Positions 37,702-46,156 of a DNA stretch of 46,156 nt are shown in pieces. The first letter of the stretch is position 1; every line of letters starts with the position of its first letter. The stretch spans positions 1-46,156 of the forward strand of contig JABBBT010000056.1 of assembly GCA_018607365.1 (NCBI GenBank). Direction: 5' to 3'. The notes under the pieces were generated by a model. It was not told the DNA's origin. It did no database searches and was given only the letters and a program-made list of their open reading frames with translations. Both the position numbers and the translations under genes were made by a program. Source of the DNA: SAR86 cluster bacterium. GTDB lineage: Bacteria; Pseudomonadota; Gammaproteobacteria; Magnimaribacterales; D2472.

Positions 37702-38901
37702 ATGAAAGAAATAATTAAAGAATATACTAATTATATGGTGCCTTTTTATGCTCCTGCAGATTTTGTTGTAAAAAAAGCAAGTGGATCGCATGTATGGGAC
37801 CTAAATAATAAGAAATATATTGATTTCACGGCAGGCATTGCCGTCACCAACCTTGGTCATTCAAATAAAGATCTAATAAAAATTCTTAAAAAGCAATCTG
37901 AGGAGCTTTGGCATTTATCAAATCTCTACATAAATGAGCCCTCAGTTACTTTGGCAAAAAAGTTATGCAAGAATTCTTTTGCAGATAAAGTATTTTTTTG
38001 TAATTCAGGGGCAGAATCAATTGAGGCTGCAGTTAAGATAGCAAGAAAATTTTGCTCATCAACAGTTAATAAAAATAAAAATGAGGTCATTTCATTTTCA
38101 ACGTCATTTCATGGAAGAACTATGCTTGGTATAGCTTTAGCTAAAGCTAAGCATCTTACAGACGGTTTTGCGCCTCTGCCTAGAGGGATAAAAAATCATC
38201 CATATAATGACATTAGTAATCTAGAAAAAGTTTTTTCAGATAAGACGGCAGCGGTTATCTTAGAACTGGTTCAATGGCAATCTGGAATAACAAAAGCAGA
38301 TAAAAAATTTATAGCAAAAATAAAGAAACTAGCAAAAAAACATAAAGCACTTGTCATAATTGATGAAGTTCAATCTGGGATTGGTAGGACTGGAACACTC
38401 TTTGCCTATGAGCAATTTAATATTACTCCTGATATTCTTTGTTTTGCTAAAGGTATATCTAATGGCTTACCGCTAGGAGGCATTCTTACTATAGATAAAG
38501 TTTCAAAATATATGTCGACAGGATCTCATGGCACGACTTTTGGAGGAGGCCCAATTGCATGTGCCATAGGTAATAAAGTTATAGATACCATTTCTAAAAA
38601 ATCATTTTTAAATCAGGTTTTAAAAAAAGAAGTTAGATTTATCAATTTATTAAATAAAATAAATGAGAAGCACAAATGTTTTGAAAAAATAACTTCTGCT
38701 GGTTTATGGGTTGGGGTGGAGGTAAACAAGGATAGCAAAATTCAAATAGATGATTTAATAAAAAAATCTCATGATAATGGATTGATGATTCTCAAGGCGA
38801 ATGCATCTACTGTTAGGTTTTCTCCAAGCCTAATAATAGAAAATGAGCTAATTGATGAGGGTCTGAAAATCTTTGAGAAATCTATAATCAGTCTTCTTTA
38901 A
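37702..38901 (+). CDS. argD: acetylornithine/succinyldiaminopimelate aminotransferase
   Basis: [47 protein letters not shown]. Track ORF starts at 37624; ATG 37702 ([18 protein letters not shown]) fits the family. Confidence 0.92.
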
Positions 38902-41143
38902 CTTCTAGTTCAACCTCTTCGATCATTTTATCTACCTTTCTATATCCTTGTGGAAGCATGTTACCTCTTTTTGCTCTTGTAGAAATATAGTTTTCTAGAT
39001 CTTTAAGTTTTAAAGTGAGGAATCTCTTCCCGCTTTCAATCCTCAAAGAGCTAGCCTCAGAAACAAGTTGCGCATGAGTCATTAACTCTTCTTTTGCTAT
39101 AAATTTAGCGGTTGGTATATTTATTATTTTATTCCCTTTGCCCTTTCCAAGAATTGGCAATTCATCAATCTTAAAAATTAATAGTCTGCCAATATTTGAA
39201 ACTGCTGCTATATACAGATGATCATCTCTTACTTTAATGGCTTTAAGAAGGTCTGCTTCATGAGGAATTTTCATAAATGCTTTTCCTGACTTCTTATTAG
39301 AAACCATATTTTTAAACTCTGAAATATAACCATATCCAGCAGTATTCATAATCATGAATTTGTCTTCATCATTACCAATCAATGAAGAAATGAACTTTAC
39401 TCCAGAATCTGCAGATACCCTTCCGGTAATAGGATCACCCATTCCTCTAGCAGATGGAAGAGAATGACTTGCAAGTGAATAAGCCTTCCCATTTGAGTCA
39501 AGAAAAACTGAAACTTGATTGCTCTTTCCCCTTCCATAATCTTGAAGTACATCTTCTCCCCTATAGGAAAGTGAGCTAGGGTCTATCTCATGACCCTTGG
39601 CACTTCTGATCCAGCCAGCTGCAGACAAGACTACTGTAATAGGTTCAGTCACAAGAGTTTCCTCTTCAGAGAAAACTTTGGCTTCTGTTGCTTCTCTTAT
39701 TGGGGATTTTCTTTCTTCTCCAAACTCATCTTTTATTTCAATAAGCTCATTTTTAATTAATGTTTTAAGTCTTGCCTTAGAACTTAGTATTTTTTCAATA
39801 TCAGTTTGTTCTGCTACCAAAGTATCTCTTTCTTGTTCTAACTTAATTTGTTCTAGCTTGGCTAGTTGCCTTAACCTAATCTCAAGGATTGCATTTGCCT
39901 GGATATCAGAAAGTTTAAAAGCTGTAATAATATCTTTTTTTGGCTCATCTGATTCTCTAATAATCTTTATTACTTTATCTAAATCTAAATAAACAATTAA
40001 TAACCCCTCAAGGATATGCAGCCTATCATTTACCTGGTCGAGTCTATGTTCAAGTTTTCTTATTACAGTTTCTTTTCTAAAGACTAACCATTCTTTCAAT
40101 AAATCAACTAGAGAGAAAACTTTTGGTCCACCTTTCAATGAAATTAAATTCATATTTACTCTATAATTTTTTTGTAAATCAGTTGATGCAAAAAGGTGAT
40201 TCATTACATCTTCAGCATTTACTCTGTTCGATTTTAAAGTTATGACAAGCCTTACAGGCTCCTTGTGGTCTCCTTCATCAGTAAGATCAACTACCATTGG
40301 AATTTTTTTCTTAAGCATTTGATCGGCTATTTGCTCTAAAATTTTTGATCCAGATGCTTGATAAGGTAATGCGTTGATAACGATTTGGTTCTTATCTTGA
40401 GCCCATTGGGCTTGAGCTTTAAAACCGCCTTTTCCAGTCGAATAAATTTCATTCAGCTCATCTTTACTAGCAATTATTGGTGAATTATTTGAGAAATCAG
40501 GACCGTTAATTATCTTTAGCAAATCAATCAGCTGTGATTTTGGATTATCAATCAGGTGCACTGTGGCATCAATAATTTCATTAATATTATGAGATGGGAT
40601 ATCTGTTGCCATTCCTACTGCAATTCCAGATGTGCCATTCAATAAAATAGATGGGAGTTTGGCTGGAAAAATTACTGGTTCTAAAAGAGAGCCATCAAAA
40701 TTAGGCTGCCAATCGACTGTTCCAGACTTCAATTCAGAGATTAAAAGATTTGCAAATTTAGTTAACTTAGATTCTGTATACCTCATTGCAGCAAAAGATT
40801 TTGGATCATCCTGAGAACCCCAGTTACCTTGACCATCTACAAAAGGGTATTTGAATGAAAAATTTTGAGCCATTAAAACCATGGCTTCATATGCAGCGCC
40901 GTCTCCATGGGGATGGAATTTTCCTATTACATCTCCAACAGTTCTTGCTGATTTTTTGTACTTTGAGCCAGCATCAAGTCCAAGCTCGGACATTGCATAG
41001 AGTATTCTTCTTTGAACAGGCTTAAGGCCATCTCCAATATTAGGCAAAGCTCTATCTAAAATGACATACATTGCATAGTTAAGATAAGACTCTTCAGCAT
41101 ATTGCTTGAGGCTAATTGAGGTTATTTGTTCTTGTTCTTTCAT
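38888..41143 (-). CDS. parC: DNA topoisomerase IV subunit A
   Basis: [28 protein letters not shown] catalytic Tyr; 751 aa; next to parE. Confidence 0.95.
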
Positions 41144-41145
41144 AT

Positions 41146-43041
41146 TTATATTTTTGCTAGAGACCCTTTCTTTTCAAGCCATTCTTTTCTTGCTGGTGCG
41201 TTCTTTTTAGACAAAAGTAAGTCCATCATGGAATTTGCATTATCGCTTGAGCTGATAGAAAGCTGAACAAGCTGACGAGTAGCAGGATCCATCACAGTCT
41301 CTCTTAGTTGTGGTGGATTCATTTCACCCAGTCCTTTAAACCTTTGAATGTTCACTTTAGGCTTGCCCTTCTTCTTTTTAAATTCAGTAACTATTTCATC
41401 TCGCTGCTTATCATCAAGTGCATATAAAACATCTTTACCAGAATCGATTCTATATAGAGGAGGCATTGAAATATATATCCTTCCCTCTTGAACTAAAGAT
41501 TTATAATGCCTTAAGAACAATGCACAAAGTAAAGTTGCAATATGTAGACCATCTGAATCAGCATCTGCAAGAATACAAATTTTTCCATATCTTAGTGATG
41601 AAAGGTCGTTATTTCCTGGCAGAACTCCAATTGCAGTTGAGAGGTTTTTTATCTCCTGAGATTTTATTATTTCTGTACTCTCTAAGTCCCAAGTATTTAA
41701 AATCTTCCCTCTTAAAGGCATGATTGCCTGGAAAGATCTCTCTCTTGCTTGTTTTGCGGATCCGCCAGCTGAGTCCCCTTCAACTAAAAAAAGCTCTGTT
41801 TCATTTAAGTCCTGACTGTTGCAGTCCGAAAGTTTTCCAGGTAATGCTGGGCCTCTAAAAGTTTTCTTTCTTTCAACTATATTAGAAACTTTTGCTCTCG
41901 TCTGAGCAGACATAATTGCAAGTTCTGCTATTCTTTCACCCTCTTCTGTATGAGTGTTAAGCCAAATACTTAAAATGTCTTTTGTCGTACTTGAGACAAA
42001 CGACATATGATCTTTTGAATCTAGTCTTTCCTTGGTTTGCCCTGCAAATTGAGGATTCTGAAGCTTAGATGAGATTATAAAAATCGCATTATTAAGAACA
42101 TCGTCTGCATTAATTTTTAAACCTTTTGGCAATAGATTTCTGTATTCACAAAATTCTTTTAATGAGTCTAAAAGCCCAGCCTTAAAGCCATTTAAATGTG
42201 AACCACCCTGAGCAGTAGGTATGAGATTTACATAGGTTTCATCGAGTTTATTTTTTGGAGGTCTTAATGACCAATTGATTGCAAACTCAAGCTCTTGAGC
42301 TTGAGATTTTTTAGAGCATACAATTGAATCTAGCAAAACCAAGTCTGCTCCCTCAGAAGAGTCAATCAAATAACTTTTGAGCCCATCTTCAAAATACCAC
42401 TTTTGTTTATCATCAGTCTTTTTTTCATTAATAAACTCTATCGTTAATCCAGGGCAGAGAACTGCTTTGGCCTTTAATAAGTGCTTAAGCTGTTTTATCT
42501 GAATCTCTATAGTTTCAAAATATGTAGGATTTGGTTTGAATTTAATTGATGTCCCAGAATTTCTGAGCCCCACCTCTCCAATCGGTTTTAATTCAGAAGA
42601 TTTATCTCCATTATTAAAAGTGATTTGGTATTCTTTAGAGTCTCTTTTTACTCTAACCTCTAATTCATCAGATAGAGCATTTACAACAGAAACTCCAACA
42701 CCATGAAGGCCGCCAGAGAAATTATAATCATCTCCAGAGAATTTCGCTCCAGCATGAAGTTTACAAAGGATGAGCTCAACTCCTGAAACTTTATGTTCCG
42801 GGTGCTCATCAATTGGCATACCCCTTCCATCATCAGAGACCTTGATAAAGCCATCTTTAAGAACAGATACTTTTATGTTTGAACAATAACCTGAAAGAGC
42901 TTCATCAACTGAATTATCAAGAACTTCTTGAATTAAATGATTTGGGTTAGATGTATCCGTATACATCCCAGGTCTTTTTTTGACAGGATCTAGTCCAGAT
43001 AAGACTTCAATTGCCTGAGCGTCATATGAATTTTTAGCCAA
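41146..43041 (-). CDS. parE: DNA topoisomerase IV subunit B
   Basis: [32 protein letters not shown]; 631 aa, so no GyrB-type insertion. Confidence 0.96.
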
Positions 43042-43180: not shown

Positions 43181-44509
43181 ATGAAAATTTACACAAAATC
43201 ATTTTTAGCACTTTTTATCTCATTTAATATTTCATCTGAAAGTCTTTTAGATATCTATAATGAAGCGCTAGAGAATGACCCTACATACAAAGCAGCCGAA
43301 TATTCGTATTTAGCAGACAAAGAGCTTAAGGTTCAAGGAAGAGCTGCTCTTCTGCCGAGTATTACCTTGAGCGGATCAACTAACTGGAACGAATACTATC
43401 AAAATAAAGAACTGCAACAACAATATAACTCTTTTTCTTCATCTGCCAGGGTTACTCAGCCGCTATTTAGACTAGATACATGGTTTCAATATAGGCAATC
43501 TAAATCTCTTACAGATGCTGCTGAAGCAGATTTTGCATTTGAGCAGCAAAATCTTTTAGTAAGAACTGCTGAGCTTTATTTTGGCGTACTTAGAGCTATT
43601 GATAATTTAAATGCGGCGATATCTGAAGAAAAAGCTATTAAAAAACAACTTGATCAAGCAAAACAAAGATTCGAAGTTGGGTTGTCAGCCATAACTGGAG
43701 TTCAAGAGGCTCAATTGGCATTTGATCTAAGTAAAGCCTCAAGAATTAGAACAGAAGGATCGCTTTATTCCGCAAGAGAATCTTTAAATGCTCTTATTGG
43801 TAGAGAAATATTCAGCTTAAATGAATTGGGAGATAGTTTGCTTATCGACCTTCCAACACCAAGCTCAAAACAGAAATGGGTTGAATTAGCATTGGAAAAT
43901 AACTACCAATTAAAAGCAGCATATTTAAGAAAGAAAGCAGCTAAAAGCAGTGCAAGAAGTGTTGCTTCAAATCATTTACCTAAGATAGATATTGTTGGAA
44001 GCCAGTCAGAATCTGAAACAAACCAATTTAACTATGAGGGTTTTAATATAGACGGCCAAGGCATTCCAGTTCCATCAGTAACAGGGAGAAGGAATTATTC
44101 AATTCAGCTCAGCATGCCACTCTTTCAAGGCGGGGCTGTTAACTCAAGAAGGAAGCAAGCATATTCCCAATATGAAAGAGCAAATGAAAACACACTATTT
44201 ACAGAAAGAAGGATTATTCAAGAAGTAAGATCTCAGTTTTCAAATGTTTTAACATTAGTTGCAAATGTAAATGCTCAAAAACAAGCAGTAGTTTCGGCCA
44301 CTAGCGCCCTAGAAGCGACTCAAGTAGGCTACAGAGTTGGAACAAGAAACGTTGTTGATCTATTACAAGCAGAAAAAAACTTATACAGTGCTGAAAAAAA
44401 TCTCGCTAATGCAAAATATGATTACATACTTGCCAATCTAAGACTTGGACTTGCATCAGGAACAATTACACCAGCAGACATAGTAAAAATTAATAATTTA
44501 CTCAGTTAA
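43181..44509 (+). CDS. tolC: TolC-family outer membrane efflux/secretion channel
   Basis: SLLDIYNEALENDPTYKAAEYSY; VGTRNVVDLLQAEKNLYSAEKNLANAKYDYIL. Confidence 0.95.
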   Translation: MKIYTKSFLALFISFNISSESLLDIYNEALENDPTYKAAEYSYLADKELKVQGRAALLPSITLSGSTNWNEYYQNKELQQQYNSFSSSARVTQPLFRLDTWFQYRQSKSLTDAAEADFAFEQQNLLVRTAELYFGVLRAIDNLNAAISEEKAIKKQLDQAKQRFEVGLSAITGVQEAQLAFDLSKASRIRTEGSLYSARESLNALIGREIFSLNELGDSLLIDLPTPSSKQKWVELALENNYQLKAAYLRKKAAKSSARSVASNHLPKIDIVGSQSESETNQFNYEGFNIDGQGIPVPSVTGRRNYSIQLSMPLFQGGAVNSRRKQAYSQYERANENTLFTERRIIQEVRSQFSNVLTLVANVNAQKQAVVSATSALEATQVGYRVGTRNVVDLLQAEKNLYSAEKNLANAKYDYILANLRLGLASGTITPADIVKINNLLS

Positions 44510-44511
44510 AA

Positions 44512-45324
44512 ATGCCCGAACTTCCAGAGGTTGAGACAACCCTGAGAGCAATTAAAAAATTTAAAGGCTCTTTGCTTAAAGAGGCAAAAGTACACAATAG
44601 AAATCTTAGATGGAAAGTAGTGGATCACTTTGAAATATCAGTAAAAGATCAAGTTGTCGAAAGCTTAGAGAGAAGAGCAAAATATATAATCTTTAACCTA
44701 TCTAATGATAAAAAAATTATTCTTCATTTAGGAATGTCTGGCAGTCTTAGAATTGCAAAAAATAATGAAAACTTCTTTATTAAGCATGACCATATTGAAT
44801 TAATTTTTGATGAGGAAAGAATTATCTATAATGACCCCCGAAGGTTTGGATCAATGCATCTTACTTCTGATATCGATAAACATAAGTTAATAAAAAACCT
44901 TGGGCCTGAGCCTCTTTCTCAAAATTTTAATGCGAAGGATTTTTTTTCAGGGTGCAGTCACTCTAAAACAAATATTAAAAGCTTTTTAATGAATCAAAAA
45001 AATGTAGTCGGTATCGGCAATATATATGCGTCTGAAAGCCTTTTCTTAGCTAAAATTCATCCGCTAAAAAATGCCAATGATTTAGATTTAGATGCTTGTA
45101 AAAGATTAGTAGCTGCTGGAAAAAAGATACTAGAGCAAGCAATAGAGGTTGGAGGAACCACATTAAAAGACTTCTATTCAGCTGATGGTAGTCCAGGTTA
45201 TTTTAAATTTAAGTTAAATGTATATGGAAGAGAGGGCGAACCATGCAATAAATGTAAAGGCACTGTTTGTAAAACGACCGTCAATCAAAGAGCTACTTTT
45301 TTTTGTGAAACTTGTCAGAGTTAA
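44512..45324 (+). CDS. mutM: formamidopyrimidine-DNA glycosylase
   Basis: MPELPEVETTLRAI; C-terminal zinc finger CNKCKGTVCKTTVNQRATFFCETCQ. Confidence 0.97.
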   Translation: MPELPEVETTLRAIKKFKGSLLKEAKVHNRNLRWKVVDHFEISVKDQVVESLERRAKYIIFNLSNDKKIILHLGMSGSLRIAKNNENFFIKHDHIELIFDEERIIYNDPRRFGSMHLTSDIDKHKLIKNLGPEPLSQNFNAKDFFSGCSHSKTNIKSFLMNQKNVVGIGNIYASESLFLAKIHPLKNANDLDLDACKRLVAAGKKILEQAIEVGGTTLKDFYSADGSPGYFKFKLNVYGREGEPCNKCKGTVCKTTVNQRATFFCETCQS

Positions 45325-45803
45325 GTATCTAGCTTCGCTCGAAGTGCCTGCTCTACTATAGGATGAACAAACTTCGATATATCGCCTTTTAAGTCTGATA
45401 TTTCTTTAATTAAACTAGAAGATACATAAATGAGACTTTCTTTTGGTGTTAAAAAAATACTTTCAATATTGGGAGCCAGCGACCTATTCATTGTTGCTAA
45501 CTGAAATTCATATTCAAAATCAGAAACTGCTCGAAGGCCTCTTATAATTGCGCAAGCTCCATAGTCTTTTGCAAGATCAACTGTTAACTTTCTTGGAAAA
45601 CCTACAACCTCTACTTTTTCATTTCCTTTAAAAATAGACTGGGCTAAATTAATTCTATCCTCTAGACTAAAAAGAGGGTTTTTCGATTCACTCTTAGCTA
45701 TTGCAACAACAACCTTGTCAAAGAGTCCACAACCCCTATCAATAATATCAGTGTGACCATTGGTTATGGGATCAAAGGAGCCAGGGTAAATTGCAACTTT
45801 CAT
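45321..45803 (-). CDS. coaD: phosphopantetheine adenylyltransferase
   Basis: MKVAIYPGSFDPITNGHTDII; IIRGLRAVSDFEYEFQLATMNRSLAP. Track start 45824; ATG 45803 fits the family start. Confidence 0.96.
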   Translation of the reverse strand: MKVAIYPGSFDPITNGHTDIIDRGCGLFDKVVVAIAKSESKNPLFSLEDRINLAQSIFKGNEKVEVVGFPRKLTVDLAKDYGACAIIRGLRAVSDFEYEFQLATMNRSLAPNIESIFLTPKESLIYVSSSLIKEISDLKGDISKFVHPIVEQALRAKLDT

Positions 45804-45908
45804 ATTAAACATGATACTAAACAAGTCTACTTATGCAAAATAAATATTAATTTGAAATATGGTGTTTTATTACACATATTTTCTATTAAAAAAATAGATG
45901 TTTTTTAT

Positions 45909-45937
45909 TTGTAACCTCTATTAATATTGGTTACTAT
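45909..45937 (+). promoter_or_regulatory. candidate promoter for proteorhodopsin (TTGTAA - 17 nt - TACTAT)
   Basis: -35 at 45909-45914, -10 at 45932-45937 in the coaD/PR divergent intergenic region. Confidence 0.3.
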
Positions 45938-45970
45938 TAAATTTCATATTTAATTAGGGGGGAGGCAATT

Positions 45971-45988
45971 ATGCTTCTTTTTCATTAA
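45971..45988 (+). CDS. candidate 5-codon upstream ORF (MLLFH*) in the proteorhodopsin leader
   Basis: ATGCTTCTTTTTCATTAA preceded by GGGGGGAGG (GGAGG at 45961-45965, 5 nt spacing); stop lies 14 nt before the PR ATG. Confidence 0.35.
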   Translation: MLLFH

Positions 45989-46002
45989 TATAGGAGTTAT
46001 AT

Positions 46003-46156
46003 ATGAAATTATTACTGATATTAGGTAGTGTTATTGCACTTCCTACATTTGCTGCAGGTGGTGGTGACCTTGATGCTAGTGATTACACTGGTGTTTCTTT
46101 TTGGTTAGTTACTGCTGCTCTATTAGCATCTACTGTATTTTTCTTTGTTGAAAGAG
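46003..46156 (+). CDS. proteorhodopsin (5' end, truncated by window edge)
   Basis: Translates as MKLLLILGSVIALPTFAAGGGDLDASDYTGVSFWLVTAALLASTVFFFVER, which I recognise as the SAR86 green-absorbing proteorhodopsin N-terminus; SD AGGAG at 45992-45996. Absent from the ORF track because no stop falls in the window. Confidence 0.95.
   Translation, partial: MKLLLILGSVIALPTFAAGGGDLDASDYTGVSFWLVTAALLASTVFFFVER

Follow-up and report, generated by a model that had tools for sequence, protein, structure and literature searches.

A SAR86 contig ends within what is very probably an intact gene for a green-absorbing proteorhodopsin

The stretch of DNA analysed here (the window) is 46,156 nucleotides long and is the whole of contig C2, from a genome assembled in 58 contigs totalling 1.18 Mb. 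Towards its right edge the gene order is parC, parE, tolC, mutM, coaD and proteorhodopsin (PR), which is followed beyond the window by a short-chain dehydrogenase, and the features that we assigned are listed in Table 1. It had been claimed from the DNA by itself that a light-driven pump lies beside coaD, mutM and tolC; profile searches identified all three of these neighbours, with the nuance that PR and coaD are divergently oriented and do not form an operon.

Table 1. Features assigned around the proteorhodopsin gene (window coordinates)
Feature	Position	Strand	Basis
Type II topoisomerase subunit A (parC by context)	38888..41143	-	PF00521
Type II topoisomerase subunit B (parE by context)	41146..43041	-	PF00204, PF00986, HATPase_c, Toprim
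TolC family outer membrane protein	43181..44509	+	TIGR01844 above cut-off
mutM/fpg, formamidopyrimidine-DNA glycosylase	44512..45324	+	TIGR00577 above cut-off
coaD, pantetheine-phosphate adenylyltransferase, divergent from PR	45321..45824	-	TIGR01510 above cut-off
Putative sigma-70 promoter TTGTAA-17-TACTAT	45909..45937	+	Boxes of relatives at the same place
Leader hairpin GGGGGGAGGCAATTATGCTTC	45957..45977	+	Conserved and covarying among SAR86 PR leaders
GGAG, likely Shine-Dalgarno sequence of the PR gene	45993..45996	+	Sequence; invariant in leader alignment A1
PR gene, codons 1-51	46003..46156	+	Translation, PDB match, join over the 55-base overlap
55-base terminal overlap with C45:1-55	46102..46156	.	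Exact match; left edge is that of the run shared with G010

The frame that opens with the ATG at 46003 contains no stop codon up to 46155 and encodes 51 residues, MKLLLILGSVIALPTFAAGGGDLDASDYTGVSFWLVTAALLASTVFFFVER, which comprise a signal peptide (residues 1-17) and the start of helix A. When these residues alone were compared with the PDB, they matched green-absorbing proteorhodopsin with E=3e-25, far beyond chance. The gene is missing from the list of open reading frames, which holds no ORF of at least 100 aa after 45824, because its frame has no stop before 46156 and runs off the end. Two statements of the sequence-only reading, that a proteorhodopsin absent from the ORF track starts at the right edge and that the last 51 codons match the green-absorbing protein of SAR86, are borne out by these results.

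The first 55 bases of contig C45 are exactly those with which the window ends, and this 55-mer is found nowhere else in the assembly. When C2 and C45 were joined the frame continued to residue 249 and then reached a stop codon, with no early stop or frameshift. A profile search with the type-1 (microbial) rhodopsin family PF01036 gave 145.6 and 145.9 bits against a cut-off of 24.6. The mature part of the joined protein (residues 18-249) is 100% identical to PDB 7b03, and residues 2-249 differ from PDB 8cqc by one substitution; the best match is therefore to green PR and does not lie outside the rhodopsins. The joined frame carries H75, D97, L105, E108, D227 and K231. Thus the retinal-binding lysine of type-1 rhodopsins is present in helix G, both the acceptor (Asp97) and the donor (Glu108) of the proteorhodopsin pumps are there, and position 105 holds Leu, which like Met, and rather than Gln, denotes the green-absorbing subgroup. 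All of the checks proposed in the sequence-only reading (extension to the right, best match of the full protein, tuning residue 105 and the retinal lysine) accordingly came out in its favour.

Blue-absorbing proteorhodopsins carry Gln at position 105, and the blue-light absorbing PR of PDB 4kly and 4knf belongs to the same family as the joined PR, which has Leu as in green PR. Both the Leu105 and the Gln105 forms are found at the PR locus within the genus, the SAR86 relatives with Q105 (G009, G014 and G015) occupying the same neighbourhood as the window PR. With the green PR of SAR86 (GPR; PDB 7b03, 2l6x and 8cqc) the joined PR has L105, D97, E108 and K231 in common, and we see no difference at the protein level that matters, only that the joined gene is split over two contigs. 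The joined PR also shares its signal peptide with the 8cqc construct, in which one residue is substituted, and this would fit GPR-A18L, a variant for which pentameric and hexameric structures have been described (PMC11322631). From its identity with a biochemically studied protein we infer that the joined PR would act as a light-driven outward proton pump, with retinal bound to K231, D97 serving as counter-ion and acceptor, E108 as donor and L105 giving the green tuning. We conclude, with a probability of about 0.97, that an intact gene for the green-absorbing proteorhodopsin of SAR86 begins at the right edge of the window and is cut there by the contig end; the gene is real and intact but ordinary, and already known.

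A further SAR86 genome, G010, carries the same 249-residue protein, with flanking genes that are only ~76-83% identical in nucleotide sequence to those of the window genome. An exact run of 56 bases (46102-46157) is common to the two genomes, and the left edge of the overlap between C2 and C45 coincides with the left edge of this run. Co-occurring SAR86 strains that share 55-56 identical bases of PR and differ on both sides would cause an assembly graph built with k=55 to branch, and the shared stretch is probably what broke the contig. The join itself rests on the 55-base overlap and on synteny, and the parts of the gene on C2 and C45 could stem from separate strains of a single species. It is unlikely, however, that the joined PR is a chimera in which the N-terminal part (on C2) and the body (on C45) derive from different co-occurring SAR86 strains whose PR alleles differ. 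Such an origin would be compatible with an overlap that is exactly common to another SAR86 species, and with PR alleles that seem to have been swapped between near relatives, but the flanking genes of both C2 and C45 have the order seen in G011 and G002 and are mostly 94-97% identical to theirs in nucleotide sequence, and the natural full-length protein of G010 is the joined protein. The 51 codons that the window shows by itself might suggest a rhodopsin pseudogene, truncated or decayed, that ends just past the window, but this is scarcely credible given that the same frame runs on through C45 to its stop after residue 249 and that the mature part is fully identical to a functional protein. 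Some type-1 rhodopsins are sensory. A light sensor in place of a pump, a reading judged from the surroundings mainly via the anchor genes, is nonetheless extremely improbable here, as E108, the proton donor, is in place and the protein is identical over its mature part to the solved green PR, a known pump (PMC11322631).

Outside the window's own genome the nearest loci are mostly from records named SAR86 cluster bacterium or SCGC gamma proteobacterium. In the family around G000, PR lies beside coaD, mutM and tolC, and most of the family f1 relatives that we examined have the order from parC to PR, in some cases with additional genes separating coaD from PR; the order parC-parE-tolC-mutM-coaD around PR was not found in G037, G040 or G023. 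Both the nearest genomes and the conserved locus order therefore point to SAR86, the type of organism that had been named from the gene fragment. Matches to PR were obtained in 53 of the 61 genomes searched (the window genome and 60 relatives within the order). Viral transfer was considered and rejected, as no relative of PR was found in IMG/VR (pattern scan) or in the phage collection. We also observed that in G011 PR and the dehydrogenase are separated by a gene (L048:9123-10637) for an acyl-CoA synthetase-like protein of 504 aa, and that G010 and G002 carry homologous DNA. In the window genome this gene is deleted (L002, which is C45, ~700-830), apparently leaving a short piece of its 3' end.

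Comparison with close relatives indicated that PR alleles may be exchanged at this locus. Between G002 and the window genome, nucleotide identity is 94-96% in tolC, mutM and the dehydrogenases downstream, whereas it is 88% in coaD and 74-82% in PR (L062 compared with window 45321-46156 and C45), and the two PR proteins are 77% identical. An in-place replacement of the PR allele by recombination, reaching into coaD, in G002 explains this pattern well. For G010 the divergence from the window genome at fourfold sites is 0.23 in PR versus 0.51-0.59 in the flanking genes, a pattern that might also reflect codon constraint in a highly expressed gene rather than allele replacement.

The leader of the PR gene consists, in order, of promoter boxes, a GGGGGAG that begins a short hairpin, GGAG and the start codon. 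In most relatives in the genus TTGATA-17-TATNAT-like boxes occupy the corresponding position, with 16-20 nt between them and GGGGGAG. The boxes of the window genome are weaker than those of its relatives and score below the threshold of a generic scan, and in G010 boxes were not recognised. Among nine leaders of the same length pairing in the stem of the hairpin is 95%, compared with 81% after shuffling, both partners vary at three pairs, and covariation scores 0.571, with slid registers giving at most 0.153; these rows are only nine and related, and the register was chosen by folding the same sequences, and we regard the covariation as good but not final evidence for the hairpin. None of the same-genus genomes searched has more than two copies of the 12-base motif GGGGGAGKMAWT, and those of its other sites that we inspected lie inside genes or directly 5' of a start codon. 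At L163 (G006) and L154 (G009), CGGGGGAGTAAATATG is the ribosome site of another gene, for a protein starting MTNPNHP, and closely resembles the 5' side of the hairpin in the PR leader. No Rfam family matched the window over its gathering score, and a sub-threshold miRNA match near PR was dismissed as chance. A leader peptide was also considered, since a five-codon ORF at 45971-45988, ATGCTTCTTTTTCATTAA, follows a GGGGGGAGG run. The ORF is confined to the closest relatives and was rejected because there is no ATG in G003, G009 or the TAA..TTA clade and the frame is read through in G002, whereas the hairpin is retained. A literature search on combined terms for a structure in the PR leader found no paper. 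We tentatively propose, at slightly less than even odds, that PR mRNA bears a conserved structured 5' leader, in which the GGGGGAG hairpin stands 16-20 nt past the conserved -10 box, ahead of the ribosome site, and would control stability or translation, although the choice of mRNA stability or translation as its function is a guess.

It had been pointed out that no retinal-synthesis genes are visible in the window, and this absence extends to the whole assembly, in which no Blh, crtB or RPE65-family enzymes were found. With the completeness of the assembly at 89%, the lack of a gene in this one genome is weak evidence, and the survey covered all 61 SAR86 genomes. None of them matched Blh, for which 4 of 185 genomes in the class exceeded the cut-off of the model as a positive control, and none matched phytoene synthase, which was detected in 7 of 14 control genomes. 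Apparent matches to the lycopene cyclase profile PF05834 (crtY) covered mostly its first 35 positions and were also obtained in E. coli, and we rejected them as generic FAD folds. RPE65-type oxygenases were not found in the window genome, in 36 of the 37 family f1 genomes or in the f4 genomes. Among G025 and G037-G060, genes of the RPE65/carotenoid-oxygenase family were seen in every sampled f2 and f3 genome and in the one remaining f1 genome, and f2 and f3 hold them although phytoene synthase is lacking throughout; an f2 example is closest to lignostilbene dioxygenases. The cell thus seems to lack any known route to retinal, and it probably takes up retinal or a cleavable carotenoid from its surroundings. 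SAR86 has been reported to be without genes for carotenoid or retinal synthesis and may scavenge retinal (PMC3569297, PMC7734400, PMC11322631); because this dependence is already in the literature, our survey is a confirmation and not a discovery.

The missing call of the PR gene is explained as an effect of the assembly edge, and serves as a warning that a proteorhodopsin locus may be interrupted in a metagenome assembly if the strains have short identical stretches in common. Less familiar than the gene itself is the in-place swap of its allele in a close relative. The leader promoter and hairpin are likewise a less familiar side result, a modest new lead in which the hairpin would provide a concrete handle on the expression of an abundant ocean protein, and the survey of genomes fits what has been reported on the dependence of SAR86 on retinal.
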